Assembly: GCA_902624455.1 (NCBI GenBank)
Contig: CACNXQ010000005.1
Span: 65,340 to 98,607, forward strand
Direction of reading: 5' to 3'
From: an uncultured Pelagibacteraceae bacterium
GTDB taxonomy: Bacteria; Pseudomonadota; Alphaproteobacteria; Pelagibacterales; AG-422-B15
DNA: 33,268 nucleotides
Part shown: in pieces, positions 12,665-17,894 of the stretch
How positions within the stretch are numbered: position 1 is the first letter of the stretch
Layout: every line of letters begins with the position of its first letter
Notes under the pieces: generated by a model
Told to the model about the DNA's origin: nothing
What the model saw: only the letters and a program-made list of their open reading frames with translations
Database searches by the model: none
Made by a program: the position numbers and the translations under genes

Positions 12665-13291
12665 ATGGAATTCAAAATAGATAATCACCAAGAAGAATAC
12701 TTAAATTCAATAAATTTTATGGAAAATAGAGTAAATGAAATCATTAAAGGATTGTCGAATGATTTAATTTGGTTTGTGAATTACCCAAGTATCTATACAT
12801 TTGGACCACAAACAATTGAGTCTGATTTAAAAATTAAAGATTTATTTCCTGTTTACGAAACTAGTAGAGGAGGAAAACTTACTTATCATGGGCCAGGTCA
12901 AAGAACGGTATACTTAATGATTGATTTGAACAAACGAACCAAAGATATAAAGAAATTTGTGAGGAAAATTGAATTAGTTATTTTGAAAACCTTGTCTTTT
13001 TATAACATTGAGGGCGAACTAAATAATGATCATCATGGAGTTTTTGTGCAAAAAAACATGAGGGCGCACAAAATTGCTAGCATTGGTTTGAAATTTAAAA
13101 AATGGACATCTTTTCATGGCTTTTCTATTAATGTTAGAACGCAACTAGATAATTACAAAGGAATCAAACCATGTGGTCTTAATAGTAGTGATGTGACAAG
13201 TTTGCTCGATTTAGGTATTGATATTGATCTAAAGGAATTCGATGATATTCTACTAAGTGTTTTAAAAGAAGAATTTGAAGAAAAATGTTAG
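12665..13291 (+). CDS. lipB: Octanoyl-[ACP]:protein N-octanoyltransferase
   Basis: LipB moves octanoate from acyl carrier protein to lipoyl domains of 2-oxo-acid dehydrogenases and GcvH, before LipA inserts sulfur. The 208-residue protein has the signature RGGKLTYHGPGQ (68-79), the catalytic Lys136 in HKIASIGLK and Cys170 in IKPCGL, the latter forming the acyl thioester. HGFSINV (151-157) is also typical. The gene is divergent from mgtE and its stop overlaps the start of the dioxygenase by 7 nt, so the two are coupled. lipA is not nearby. Length and all catalytic residues are normal. Confidence 0.96.
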   Translation: MEFKIDNHQEEYLNSINFMENRVNEIIKGLSNDLIWFVNYPSIYTFGPQTIESDLKIKDLFPVYETSRGGKLTYHGPGQRTVYLMIDLNKRTKDIKKFVRKIELVILKTLSFYNIEGELNNDHHGVFVQKNMRAHKIASIGLKFKKWTSFHGFSINVRTQLDNYKGIKPCGLNSSDVTSLLDLGIDIDLKEFDDILLSVLKEEFEEKC

Positions 13292-14373
13292 AAATTTTAA
13301 AATACAACAATAAAAGTATTTCACTAAATATTAATCATCAGAAATATAACTTGCATGCTCAGTGGTTATATGAAATTAGCAAAAATACACTTATTAGAGA
13401 TCCATACACTAATCAGCTTATAATTGAGGTGGCAGAGATAAATAAAAATTTATTTATAAAACAAGCAATCATTAAAAATAATGCACTATTAATTTACTTT
13501 AATGATAACTCTGAACATATTTTTTCAAAAAAACAGATTCTCAACCAATTAGTTAAACATAATATAAAAACTGAAAAAAAATTATGGAATAAAAAGACAA
13601 TTAATCTTCCAAAGTTTAATTTTAAAAAATTTAATCAACAGATGCTTCTTGAAATACTTGAAGCAGTTGAAAGATTTGGATTTTGTCTAATCAAAAATAT
13701 GCCTGTCAAAAAAAATGGAATTAATGAATTAACAAATCATATTGGCCCTATCAAAAATACTAATTGGGGAGGTATTGCAGATGTGAAAAGTATTAAAAAA
13801 GCTTATGACTTAACTATGACAACTAGAGCTCTTGAAAATCACACAGATAACCCCTACAGATTTCCTACGCAAGGGTACATTTTTTTACATTGCCTAGAAA
13901 ATAGCAAGTTTGGGGGTGCAAATACCATCTCTGACGGTTTCTATATAGCAGAATATCTTAAAAAGAATTTTAAGGACTATTTTCATACACTAACGACATT
14001 TCATACATTTTTTGAATATCAAGATGAAAATGCATGTTTGCAGAATAATTGTACACTTATTGAACTTGATAATGAAAAATCTGTAAGTCAAGTTAGATAC
14101 AACAATAGGACTGAAATAATGCCATTCAAAAATCAAAAAGATTTAGATAAGTATATAGAGGCAAGAAGAAAATTTTGGAGTTTGATAAAATCAAAAACAA
14201 ATAACCTTGAGATCAAACAACAATCAGGCGATATGCTGATACTTGATAACTACCGTGTTTTACATGGAAGAACTGGCTACAAAGATACTGAAAATAAGAG
14301 ATACTTCAGACAAGGATACATGGATCGTGATATTTTACAGAGCAAACTCAAAACTTTAAGAGCTAATTCTTAA
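13285..14373 (+). CDS. Gamma-butyrobetaine dioxygenase-like Fe(II)/2-oxoglutarate oxygenase
   Basis: The family hydroxylates gamma-butyrobetaine to carnitine or trimethyllysine, using Fe(II) and 2-oxoglutarate. The 362 residues form two parts: a GBBH N-terminal-like (DUF971) domain, about 1-95, recognisable by AQWLYE...DPYTNQ, and a TauD/TfdA-type double-stranded helix. The iron triad is visible as His186 and Asp188 (ENHTDNP) with distal His327 in RVLHGRTGY; Arg329 and later Arg338 or Arg342 are candidates for 2-oxoglutarate binding. The N-terminal domain lacks the CxCxxC zinc cysteines of human BBOX1. The substrate cannot be told from sequence; other bacterial relatives act on unknown betaines. 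The start overlaps lipB by 7 nt; the stop end overlaps convergent pccA by 11 nt. Confidence 0.82.
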   Translation: MLEILKYNNKSISLNINHQKYNLHAQWLYEISKNTLIRDPYTNQLIIEVAEINKNLFIKQAIIKNNALLIYFNDNSEHIFSKKQILNQLVKHNIKTEKKLWNKKTINLPKFNFKKFNQQMLLEILEAVERFGFCLIKNMPVKKNGINELTNHIGPIKNTNWGGIADVKSIKKAYDLTMTTRALENHTDNPYRFPTQGYIFLHCLENSKFGGANTISDGFYIAEYLKKNFKDYFHTLTTFHTFFEYQDENACLQNNCTLIELDNEKSVSQVRYNNRTEIMPFKNQKDLDKYIEARRKFWSLIKSKTNNLEIKQQSGDMLILDNYRVLHGRTGYKDTENKRYFRQGYMDRDILQSKLKTLRANS

Positions 14374-16357
14374 AAATTATTAATTCTTCGTCTGTACTTA
14401 CGCTATCTCCAGATTTTACCAGAATCTTTTCTACTGTGCAGTCTTTTTCACTTTTTAAAATGTTTTCCATCTTCATGGCTTCAATAATTAGTATCTGATC
14501 TCCATTTTTAACTTTCTGACCCTCTTTAACATCAACCGTTTTTATCAAACCTGGCATTGGAGAGATCAGTTTTTTGGATAGATCTTCTGCTTTTAGTTTT
14601 GGCATATATCCAAGTAAATTTTCTTGCGATCTAGGAATTATTTTCATATCCAGCACACAATCTTCAAAGCCAACTTTGACATCATGTATGTTCTTTATTT
14701 TTACTACCTTGAAGCTTTTCACATCATTATCAATTGAAAGTCTTAAAATTTTCTCATAGAGTTTCCAATCAGTACTTAATTCGTATTTTTTTTTGTTTAT
14801 TTGCACAGAAACAGAAAGGTCATTATTTTGTAAATTAAAGTTTAATATTTTCAAGTTTGTGACCTTGTTCTCTGAACTGATTGTAAAATCCTTATTTATC
14901 ATTGTTTTTGGATTTTTGATTTGACTAAGATGCATGATAATTGCTGATAAACTTAGTTTCTCAATTTTCTCTTGATCAATTAAACAATTTGCTTGATAGC
15001 CATTTTTAAATTTTTCCTTGATAAAATTAGTACTAATATCTCCTTTTTGAAATTTTTTATCTGATAAAATTGAAATCAAAAATTCAATATTATTTCCTAC
15101 TCCAGATAAGTAGTATTGATTAAGAGATTCTATCATTAATTTAATTGCAGACTTTCTATCATTACTATGAACCGCAAGTTTTGATATCATGGGGTCATAA
15201 TAAATTGATATGTCAGAGCCAGGACTAATGCCTGTATCATTTCTAACTATCTGACTGGAAGAATTTGTAATTTTTGGTTCAATATACTCAGAAACTCTTC
15301 CAATAGACGGCAAAAAGTCCTTTGTTGGGTCCTCTGCATAAATCCTAGACTCCACAGACCAACCGTTCAGTTTTATATCTTTTTGTTTAATATTGAGCTT
15401 TTGATTATCAGCACATCTTATCATTTGCTCAACCAAATCTACATTTGTGACAAGTTCAGTAACTGGGTGCTCTACTTGTAACCTTGTATTCATTTCAAGA
15501 AAGTAGAAATTCTTATTTTTATCTACAACAAACTCTACGGTGCCAGCTGAGTCATATCTAACTTCCTTTGCTAAAGTTAATGCCTGTCTAGCCATCTCTT
15601 CTCGCATTTCCTCATCAACAAAAGGTGATGGACATTCTTCTATTACTTTTTGATATCTTCGCTGAATAGAACATTCTCTTTCACCAAGATGTAGTTGATT
15701 GCCATGCTTATCGCACAGAATTTGTATTTCTATATGACGAGGTTCTTCAATATATTTTTCAATAAATACTCGATCATCACCGAAACTTTTTTTAGATTCA
15801 CTCTTTGCAACGTCAAAATTTTCAGATAGCTCTTTTTCAGCTTTAACGATACGCATACCTTTTCCACCACCTCCAGCAGACGCCTTAAGTAGTACTGGAA
15901 AACCAATTTTCTTAGAAATTTTCATTGCCTCTTTAGAGTTTTTTACTGGAGCTGTGTGCCCAGGAATAACATTTAATTTAAGTTTTATTGCTAAATTCTT
16001 AGATTCAATTTTATCTCCCATTTTTTTTATTGCATTTGGATTTGGTCCGATAAATTTTATTTTTGTCTTCTGAAGCTTTTTAACAAAATCAGCATTTTCT
16101 GACAAAAAACCATACCCAGGATGAATAGCATCAGCTTTTGATTTTTTTGCTACCTCTAATATTTTTGGAACATTCAAATAAGATTCACTAGGTTGAGAGC
16201 CTCCTATAAAATAGGACTCATCTGCATTCCTAACATATAATGAGTCTTTATCGGCCTCAGAATAAACAGCTACAGTTTTTATGTTCAGCCTTTTAGCTGT
16301 TTTGATCACCCTGCATGCAATTTCACCTCTATTAGCAATTAAGATTTTTTTTATCAT
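14363..16357 (-). CDS. pccA: Biotin-dependent acyl-CoA carboxylase alpha subunit (propionyl-CoA carboxylase type)
   Basis: This subunit carboxylates its own biotin with ATP and bicarbonate, then presents it to the beta subunit. The 664 residues contain a biotin carboxylase domain (about 1-445) with ANRGEIACRV, the ATP-grasp glycine loop AGGGGKGM (161-168) and MNTRLQVEH (289-297). A BT-type linker region (about 465-590) follows, then a biotinyl domain (about 598-664) with biotin Lys629 in EAMKMEN. The fused layout matches propionyl-CoA or methylcrotonyl-CoA carboxylase, not the separate AccB/AccC of fatty-acid synthesis. The partner pccB, 4 nt upstream, belongs to the propionyl clade. The gene ends over the last 11 nt of the dioxygenase gene on the other strand. 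Confidence 0.92.
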   Translation of the reverse strand: MIKKILIANRGEIACRVIKTAKRLNIKTVAVYSEADKDSLYVRNADESYFIGGSQPSESYLNVPKILEVAKKSKADAIHPGYGFLSENADFVKKLQKTKIKFIGPNPNAIKKMGDKIESKNLAIKLKLNVIPGHTAPVKNSKEAMKISKKIGFPVLLKASAGGGGKGMRIVKAEKELSENFDVAKSESKKSFGDDRVFIEKYIEEPRHIEIQILCDKHGNQLHLGERECSIQRRYQKVIEECPSPFVDEEMREEMARQALTLAKEVRYDSAGTVEFVVDKNKNFYFLEMNTRLQVEHPVTELVTNVDLVEQMIRCADNQKLNIKQKDIKLNGWSVESRIYAEDPTKDFLPSIGRVSEYIEPKITNSSSQIVRNDTGISPGSDISIYYDPMISKLAVHSNDRKSAIKLMIESLNQYYLSGVGNNIEFLISILSDKKFQKGDISTNFIKEKFKNGYQANCLIDQEKIEKLSLSAIIMHLSQIKNPKTMINKDFTISSENKVTNLKILNFNLQNNDLSVSVQINKKKYELSTDWKLYEKILRLSIDNDVKSFKVVKIKNIHDVKVGFEDCVLDMKIIPRSQENLLGYMPKLKAEDLSKKLISPMPGLIKTVDVKEGQKVKNGDQILIIEAMKMENILKSEKDCTVEKILVKSGDSVSTDEELIIFKN

Positions 16358-16361
16358 TTTA

Positions 16362-17894
16362 TTAAAGTGGTATATTGTCGTGTTTTTTATAAGGAGAGCT
16401 AAGTTCTTTATTCTCTAAATTTTTAAGTGCTACTGCGATACGTTTCCTGGTTGAATGAGGTTTAATAACATCATCTATAAATCCTCTTTTTGAGGCAATA
16501 AAAGGATTTGCGAATTGCTCGGTATACTCTTCAGTTCTTTTTTCAATTTTAGCCTTATTTTTTATTTCATTTCTAAATAAAATTTCTGTAGCTCCTTTCG
16601 CGCCCATGACTGCTATTTCTGCACTTGGCCAAGCATAGTTAATGTCGCCTCTCAGATGCTTAGAAGCCATAACTACGTATGCTCCACCATATGCTTTCCT
16701 AGTAATGATTGTTACTTTAGGAACGGTAGCTTCAGCATAAGCATATAATAATTTAGCGCCATTTTTGATAATGCCGTTATGCTCTTGAGACACCCCTGGT
16801 AGGAAACCCGGAACATCCACAAAGGTCACTATTGGAATATTAAAACAGTCACAAAATCTTACAAACCTTCCACCTTTTTTTCCTGAATCAATATCTAAGC
16901 AGCCCGCCAAAACTAAAGGCTGATTTGCCACAAAACCTACTGTTTTACCTTCAATTCTGCCAAACCCAGTTATAATATTTTTTGCAAAATCAGGTTGGAT
17001 CTCGAAAAAATAGTTGTTATCAACTACCTTATTTATTAGTTCCTTCATGTCATATGGCTTGTTAGGATTTTCAGGAACTAATGTATCAAGTGATAAATCT
17101 TGATCTAGCCCTTGATAACTGTCTGAAGATGATCTTGATATTTCTCTATTATTAGAAGGCAGTAAATCAATTAAATTTTTAATTTCGTGAAGAGTATCTA
17201 TATCATTGTTGAAAGCTCCATCTGCTACTGAAGATTTTGATGTGTGTGTTTTTGCTCCACCAAGCTCTTCTTGAGTCACACTTTCTTGAGTCACGGTCTT
17301 TACAACATCTGGACCGGTAACAAACATGAAAGAAGTATTTTTTACCATAAATATAAAATCTGTCATTGCTGGGGAATAAACTGCGCCACCAGCGCATGGG
17401 CCCATGATTACAGATATTTGAGGTACTACTCCAGAAGCAAGAACATTCCTTTGAAAAACCTCGGCATAGCCCGCAAGTGATGCAACACCTTCCTGAATAC
17501 GAGCACCCCCAGAATCATTAATCCCTATTATTGGAGCACCAACCTTAATTGCCATATCCATGATTTTACAAATCTTCTCTGCATGGGCTTCAGACAATGA
17601 ACCACCAAAAACCGTAAAGTCTTGACTAAAAACATAGACAAGCTTGCCATTTATTCTTCCACTTCCTGTAACAACACCGTCTCCAGCAAATTTTTGATCG
17701 GCCATACCAAAATCATTAGTCCTATGTTCGACATACATGTCGTACTCTTCAAAGGAGCCCTCATCAAGGAGAACATCTATTCTTTCTCTTGCTGTAAGTT
17801 TTCCTCTAGCATGCTGTGCATCGATTCTTTTCTTTCCGCCACCTTCGCGTGCTTCAAGTCTCTTTTTCTCTAATTGATCGATGATTTTTGTCAT
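16362..17894 (-). CDS. pccB: Acyl-CoA carboxylase beta subunit (propionyl-CoA carboxylase clade)
   Basis: The beta subunit transfers CO2 from carboxybiotin to an acyl-CoA; with propionyl-CoA it gives methylmalonyl-CoA. The 510-residue protein has two crotonase-type halves. The oxyanion-hole loops are [11 protein letters not shown] (165-175) and [10 protein letters not shown] (400-409). Other PCC-type blocks are [26 protein letters not shown] and [15 protein letters not shown]. The residue after GGAY is Val407, whereas propionyl-CoA carboxylases normally have Asp there, so specificity may be broader. A Shine-Dalgarno-like AAGG precedes the ATG. rluC lies 36 nt upstream and pccA follows after 4 nt. 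The clade call is good; the preferred acyl-CoA is open. Confidence 0.93.

Follow-up and report, generated by a model that had tools for sequence, protein, structure and literature searches.

We found that the window, by which we mean the whole stretch of 33,268 nucleotides analyzed here, encodes a propionyl-CoA carboxylase (PCC) beta subunit, PccB, with Val at residue 407. At this position, carboxylases that use propionyl-CoA are described as having a conserved Asp (PMC7835884, in part; here and below, "in part" marks papers cited for a part of their text). The enzyme is likely an ordinary alpha-beta PCC in which Val407 is tolerated and has evolved repeatedly. Its main substrate would still be propionyl-CoA; use of acetyl-CoA would rise modestly at most, and use of butyryl-CoA would not increase and would probably fall. 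The features on which this reading draws are listed below; the source family is the family of the source genome.

16362..17894, minus strand: pccB, 510 aa, PCC beta (carboxyltransferase) subunit; Pfam Carboxyl_trans, 644.9 bits.
16674..16676, minus strand: codon 407, GTA (Val), the specificity position (Asp422 of S. coelicolor, Asp407 of M. extorquens), placed by alignments.
16677..16688, minus strand: residues 403-406, GGAY, the loop holding the acyl-CoA thioester; invariant in 42/42 source-family members and in 80/80 named relatives (the best 80 of at least 587).
17454..17456, minus strand: codon 147, Phe; Phe in 41/41 source-family members covering the site (PMC5187497, in part).
16389..16391, minus strand: codon 502, Tyr; Trp in 0/42 source-family members and in 79/80 named relatives (the best 80 of at least 587).
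14363..16357, minus strand: pccA, 664 aa, biotin carboxylase, BT region and biotin carrier; directly downstream of pccB.

When PccB was searched against the PDB with phmmer, the top match was 3n6r_B (E 2.6e-249, 831 bits, residues 2-510). All eight top matches were named PCC beta subunits or engineered forms, starting at residue 2, 3 or 5 and ending at 510. The PccA translation contains the Pfam domains Biotin_carb_N, CPSase_L_D2, Biotin_carb_C and Biotin_lipoyl and an intact biotin motif, EAMKMEN; PCC_BT scored 20.2, slightly under its Pfam cut-off of 23.5. The set expected of a PCC is therefore present, with a full-length PccB-type carboxyltransferase, an adjacent alpha subunit, and an epimerase and a mutase in the genome. 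Asp at the specificity position is absent from the window PccB; this is not a strict criterion, since 3n6r_B is a PCC with Val. The Ile that marks AccB-type enzymes is not found there either. With PccB, every NCBIfam model stayed below its cut-off, which we counted against the ordinary PCC; the best was mmdA (TIGR01117, methylmalonyl-CoA decarboxylase alpha), at 765.7 bits versus a cut-off of 998.8. The decarboxylase assignment is not supported: this score lies below the curated cut-off, and a biotin carboxylase subunit adjoins the gene. Nor does PccB match the medium-chain acyl-CoA carboxylases of the MccB type, which have Gly in place of the pocket Phe; Phe147 is present in all 41 source-family members covering the site (equivalence by numbering offset; PMC5187497, in part). 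An Rfam scan of the window returned nothing at gathering thresholds. Convergent with pccA, a TauD-family dioxygenase gene lies at 13285-14370 of the window; its nearest model was TmpA (2-trimethylaminoethylphosphonate dioxygenase), with 304 bits against a cut-off of 400.

The ORF translation confirmed that residue 407 is encoded in frame by GTA. In the phmmer alignments, V407 stands opposite D407 of the wild-type M. extorquens PCC (6ybp), with no gap nearby, and opposite I407 of the engineered M. extorquens forms 6ybq, 8pn7 and 8pn8. The initial annotation had placed the specificity residue here and excluded a frameshift from the flanking codons; the identical numbering, 407, bears this out and rejects a slip of frame or alignment. 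An alignment putting another residue at the Asp422 position had been named beforehand as counting against the claim, and the gapless alignments around the site to both 6ybp and 3n6r keep Val there. The role assigned to position 422 also agrees with work on S. coelicolor, in which D422I was reported to be clearly promiscuous and I420D in AccB to narrow the range (cited in PMC7835884, in part). From the PDB alignments and the position-422 series of S. coelicolor PccB, we therefore consider the placement correct. That Val is a sequencing slip is unlikely, because all 42 source-family PccB sequences covering the site carry it, through three different codons. The alignments refute an artefact of either kind, and the chance that some other residue truly occupies the Asp422 position is next to nil.

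To see how Val407 is distributed, we compared PccB within the source family and beyond it. The source family comprises 53 genomes: 42 have a PccB covering the site (four genera), 1 has an N-terminal piece only, and 10 are draft genomes without a close PccB match. The orthologue alignment proposed earlier gave Val in 42/42 (own included), encoded by GTC in 18, GTT in 15 and GTA in 9. Constant Val over changing synonymous codons suggests selection for Val. A separate set of peptide patterns gave the named relatives, among which Asp stands at 407 in 77 and Val in 3 (the best 80 of at least 587), and residues 402-406 and 408-409 are invariant in the same 80. The statement that PCCs have Asp at this position thus holds for nearly all of these named relatives and fails for the closest PCC in the PDB, 3n6r_B. 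Across Alphaproteobacteria, we drew 385 genomes evenly and found the loop motif in 219, a search that would miss PccB with differing flanking residues. A codon with T in the middle occurs at 407 in 16 of these 219, namely 14 with Val (own included, 10 families) and 2 with Ile. Five families (f11, f17, f99, f132 and f156) contain both Val and Asp genomes.

We then placed these sequences on a tree of 85 rows, a chosen subset (9 source-family, 23 Val/Cys/Ile and 53 Asp rows) built by a quick method with LG+G4 and with column 407 excluded. Twenty of the related stretches were picked by hand from the motif list (4 Cys and 16 Asp, 7 of the latter from families also with Val). Val requires 12 changes on this tree, each of which may be a gain or a loss, and well-supported (starred) branches force 8 of the 12; support is weak at 26 of the 82 inner branches, row L080 is a partial sequence, and L190 and L191 are flagged long branches. 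The row nearest to 3n6r (Val) is an Asp Ruegeria sequence, 88% identical to it, among the best 80 of at least 587 named relatives. Together, the class sample, the tree changes and the 3n6r/Ruegeria pair establish that Val has recurred naturally in a minority of alphaproteobacterial PccB enzymes, and an oddity of one genome is rejected by the 42/42 count and the 12 changes. Among the sequences of the pocket alignment, only D, V, C and I occur at 407. Cys was seen in four genomes of one family among the matches listed; these (L175-L178, family f51) belong to another small-genome family (1.3-1.4 Mb), and Ccr, the crotonyl-CoA carboxylase/reductase, was found in 0/4. According to the initial annotation, Cys also occupies the corresponding position in mycobacterial AccD5. 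AccD5 uses mainly propionyl-CoA (PMC4347857, in part). Ile407 occurs in two alphaproteobacterial pccB genes (L091 and L092), as in the promiscuous S. coelicolor AccB and the engineered D407I form; neither genome has Ccr. One Sphingomonas MAG (L134) has an in-frame stop inside pccB.

The six other acyl-pocket positions checked are unchanged. We assigned positions 143, 147, 173, 177, 380, 383 and 407 by numbering offset, with no structural superposition of our own. The first six of these are Y, F, Y, M, A and L in every source-family sequence that covers them, which is the majority state of the Asp enzymes. In the GGAY loop, the equivalent Gly of MccB contacts the thioester (PMC5187497, in part; equivalence by numbering offset). 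The sequence of 6ybq differs from that of 6ybp by L100S, Y143H, D407I, I450V and W502R, and 6ybq is described as the glycolyl-CoA carboxylase M5, with five mutations (PMC10729300, in part). The source family retains Leu100 and Tyr143 (41/41 covering) and Ile450 (40/42). Residue 502 is Leu in 28 members, Tyr in 7, Gln in 3, Ile in 2, Phe in 1 and Ser in 1. The loss of Trp502, another site altered in the engineered enzyme, counts against an ordinary PCC. As a hallmark of specificity, this residue was weakened by its absence from 8/123 Asp and 3/17 Val sequences outside the source family. S. coelicolor PccB has Pro at the equivalent position, in a PPKKH stretch, so that Trp502 loss by itself carries little weight. 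On the tree, the row outside the source family that lies nearest to it, L187, combines Pro502 with Asp407, and Trp502 loss may therefore precede Val407. We found no mention of W502R together with a carboxylase in the literature searched. A single subclade, to which M. extorquens belongs, has Asp and not Ala at position 171 (L073, L075, L076, L084, L085, L087-L089, L093, L175-L179, L189 and L193); Asp171 touches the engineered His143 in the glycolyl-CoA carboxylase (PMC10729300, in part).

The source genome (1.32 Mb, 15 contigs, 99% complete) was examined for the genes around propionyl-CoA. The methylmalonyl-CoA mutase whose presence the initial annotation had proposed to check is encoded (1190.9 bits, cut-off 876), with MeaB directly after it (363.8 bits, cut-off 329), and methylmalonyl-CoA epimerase lies on contig C7 (169.9 bits, cut-off 114.95). 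The same check of accA and accD was borne out for AccA (384.2 bits, cut-off 357); for AccD there is a candidate, a 149-residue piece scoring 165.7 against a whole-protein cut-off of 317.45. The genome contains five PF01039 matches in all: PccB, two other large carboxyltransferases, AccA and the AccD candidate. Next to Ccr (567.8 bits, cut-off 378.55) are genes for a second mutase of 652 aa and an acyl-CoA dehydrogenase of 551 aa, whose sizes and positions fit ethylmalonyl-CoA mutase and methylsuccinyl-CoA dehydrogenase. The genes of this probable ethylmalonyl-CoA pathway on contig C1 (Ccr, the second mutase, the acyl-CoA dehydrogenase, methylmalonyl-CoA mutase and MeaB) occupy two stretches of the source genome:

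G000:C1:258033-263029 (L197:8034-13030).
G000:C1:281142-284274 (L198:11143-14275).

The isocitrate lyase family was not found in the source genome. Judging from the Ccr gene set, the source genome probably encodes the ethylmalonyl-CoA pathway. Because this pathway requires carboxylation of propionyl-CoA, the PCC would have a dedicated role. Ccr exceeded its cut-off in 40/53 source-family genomes, and the 13 without it include one that is 91% complete. The other family of the same order (144 genomes) yielded nothing close to PccB (best E 2.2e-16), and the mutase family was absent from 21/21 genomes examined. From the mutase, epimerase, MeaB, the Ccr set, AccA and the AccD candidate, we infer a dedicated role in propionyl-CoA use with no need for a role in acetyl-CoA use. 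That Val makes up for a missing acetyl-CoA carboxylase was rejected in the source genome as regards AccA. We also examined if Val is tied to the ethylmalonyl-CoA pathway. Ccr was present in 11/13 Val, 34/61 Asp, 0/4 Cys and 0/2 Ile genomes, the 61 Asp genomes being hand-picked among the matches listed, and no clear tie emerged for Val versus Asp (Fisher p = 0.065). A paired test on starred branches (45 rows) gave 6 independent pairs, of which on average 1.1 favored the tie, 0 opposed it and 4.9 showed no difference; the number of pairs is too small for significance.

According to our model, PccA would carboxylate its own biotin, and PccB would use that carboxyl group to make methylmalonyl-CoA from propionyl-CoA bound where two beta subunits meet in the dimer. 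The epimerase and the mutase would convert this to succinyl-CoA, a sequence that most likely completes the ethylmalonyl-CoA pathway. Val407 would take the place of Asp in lining the end of the acyl pocket. The specificity residue is buried far inside the pocket and points its side chain at the acyl group (PMC7835884, in part). In T. fusca, D427I changed Vmax/Km from 644 to 408 for propionyl-CoA, from 115 to 154 for acetyl-CoA and from 244 to 53 for butyryl-CoA (PMC7835884, in part). Two synthetic pathways employ PCC D407I to carboxylate acetyl-CoA (PMC11599936, with M. extorquens named as the source, and PMC9889269, both in part). Thus, from T. fusca, S. coelicolor and PCC D407I, a hydrophobic residue at 407 can favor acetyl-CoA, more so in some enzymes than in others. 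Residue 407 alone does not predict acyl range, as the Asp enzyme of T. fusca is itself promiscuous. In the literature searched (the primary kinetic tables of the 3iav series and of 3n6r lay outside it), we found no kinetics for any Val form or for a source-family PccB, and no mention of D422V.

The initial annotation had suggested that Val broadens the acyl range, perhaps to acetyl-CoA and butyryl-CoA. Some extra activity on acetyl-CoA is plausible from the Asp-to-Ile data. The butyryl-CoA part is unsupported by the one kinetic table consulted, and it points the wrong way in the T. fusca case, because D427I lowered butyryl-CoA use there. It is unlikely that Val407 makes a truly broad carboxylase of the kind of S. 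coelicolor AccB, whose cellular substrates would include acetyl-CoA and perhaps butyryl-CoA besides propionyl-CoA. A larger shift in substrate is possible, because D422I is promiscuous in S. coelicolor (cited in PMC7835884, in part) and PCC D407I serves for acetyl-CoA; Val shares with Ile a branched, hydrophobic side chain, and a butyryl-CoA side reaction would yield another intermediate of the ethylmalonyl-CoA pathway. Against this stand the modest shifts of T. fusca D427I, the natural recurrence of Val, including in 3n6r, the AccA and AccD candidate alongside propionyl-CoA-to-succinyl-CoA enzymes, and the lack of a clear tie to Ccr, the one gene-content trait tested. A related reading adds Trp502 loss to Val407, two of the five positions changed in the glycolyl-CoA carboxylase, and sees a naturally widened enzyme for propionyl-CoA that would, inside the cell, also act on acetyl-CoA or a small hydroxyacyl-CoA; we regard this as very improbable.

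Neutral drift, by which Asp and Val would be equal in function and Val one mutation away (GAY to GTY), is compatible with an ordinary PCC, and we hold it to be doubtful. It agrees with the many recurrences of Val among Asp genomes of the same families and with the 88% identity between the Val sequence of 3n6r and the Asp Ruegeria sequence. On the other hand, site 407 is not free, because Val is held in 42/42 source-family members across synonymous codons and its neighbors are invariant in the best 80 of at least 587 named relatives; just four residues occur at 407 in the pocket alignment. Asp at 407/422 is unsafe as an annotation rule, as a minority of alphaproteobacterial PccB, one of them with a solved holoenzyme, have Val. 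Natural Asp/Val pairs, such as Ruegeria and R. denitrificans, offer a ready system for the effect of the residue in an unengineered enzyme.

Among known systems, position 422 of S. coelicolor PccB corresponds to 407 of the window; that enzyme is actinobacterial and, unlike the window PccB, naturally has Asp. Its PDB entries have Asp (1xnv), Ile (1xnw), Val (3iav), Ala (3ibb) and Asn (3mfm) at residue 422, so that the exact Asp-to-Val PccB already has a deposited structure, 3iav, with the residue of the window. Entry 1xny, identical in sequence to 1xnv, contains S. coelicolor PccB, and 3ibb is the PccB mutant D422A (PMC7835884 and PMC5187497, both in part). T. fusca TfAcCCB has the homologous specificity position, D427, with kinetics for Asp versus Ile; it has Asp yet is promiscuous, and it includes an extra non-catalytic subunit (PMC7835884, in part). 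The M. extorquens PCC 6ybp shares the 510-residue numbering of the window PccB and differs at residue 171, where it has Asp and the window Ala. Its engineered glycolyl-CoA carboxylase forms (6ybq, 8pn7 and 8pn8) combine hydrophobic Ile407 with a replaced Trp502, while the window has Val407 and Tyr502 and retains Leu100, Tyr143 and Ile450, all altered in 6ybq. Huang 2010 reportedly compared the R. pomeroyi PCC with a chimera carrying the R. denitrificans beta subunit. That subunit is the one in the PCC holoenzyme chimera 3n6r (PMC10148081 and PMC4347857, both in part). It is the closest relative in the PDB: like the window PccB, it has the loop AYGGAYVVM with Val407; unlike the window PccB, it keeps Trp502, has Val100 instead of Leu100 and lies in a part of the tree where Asp and Val rows are mixed.
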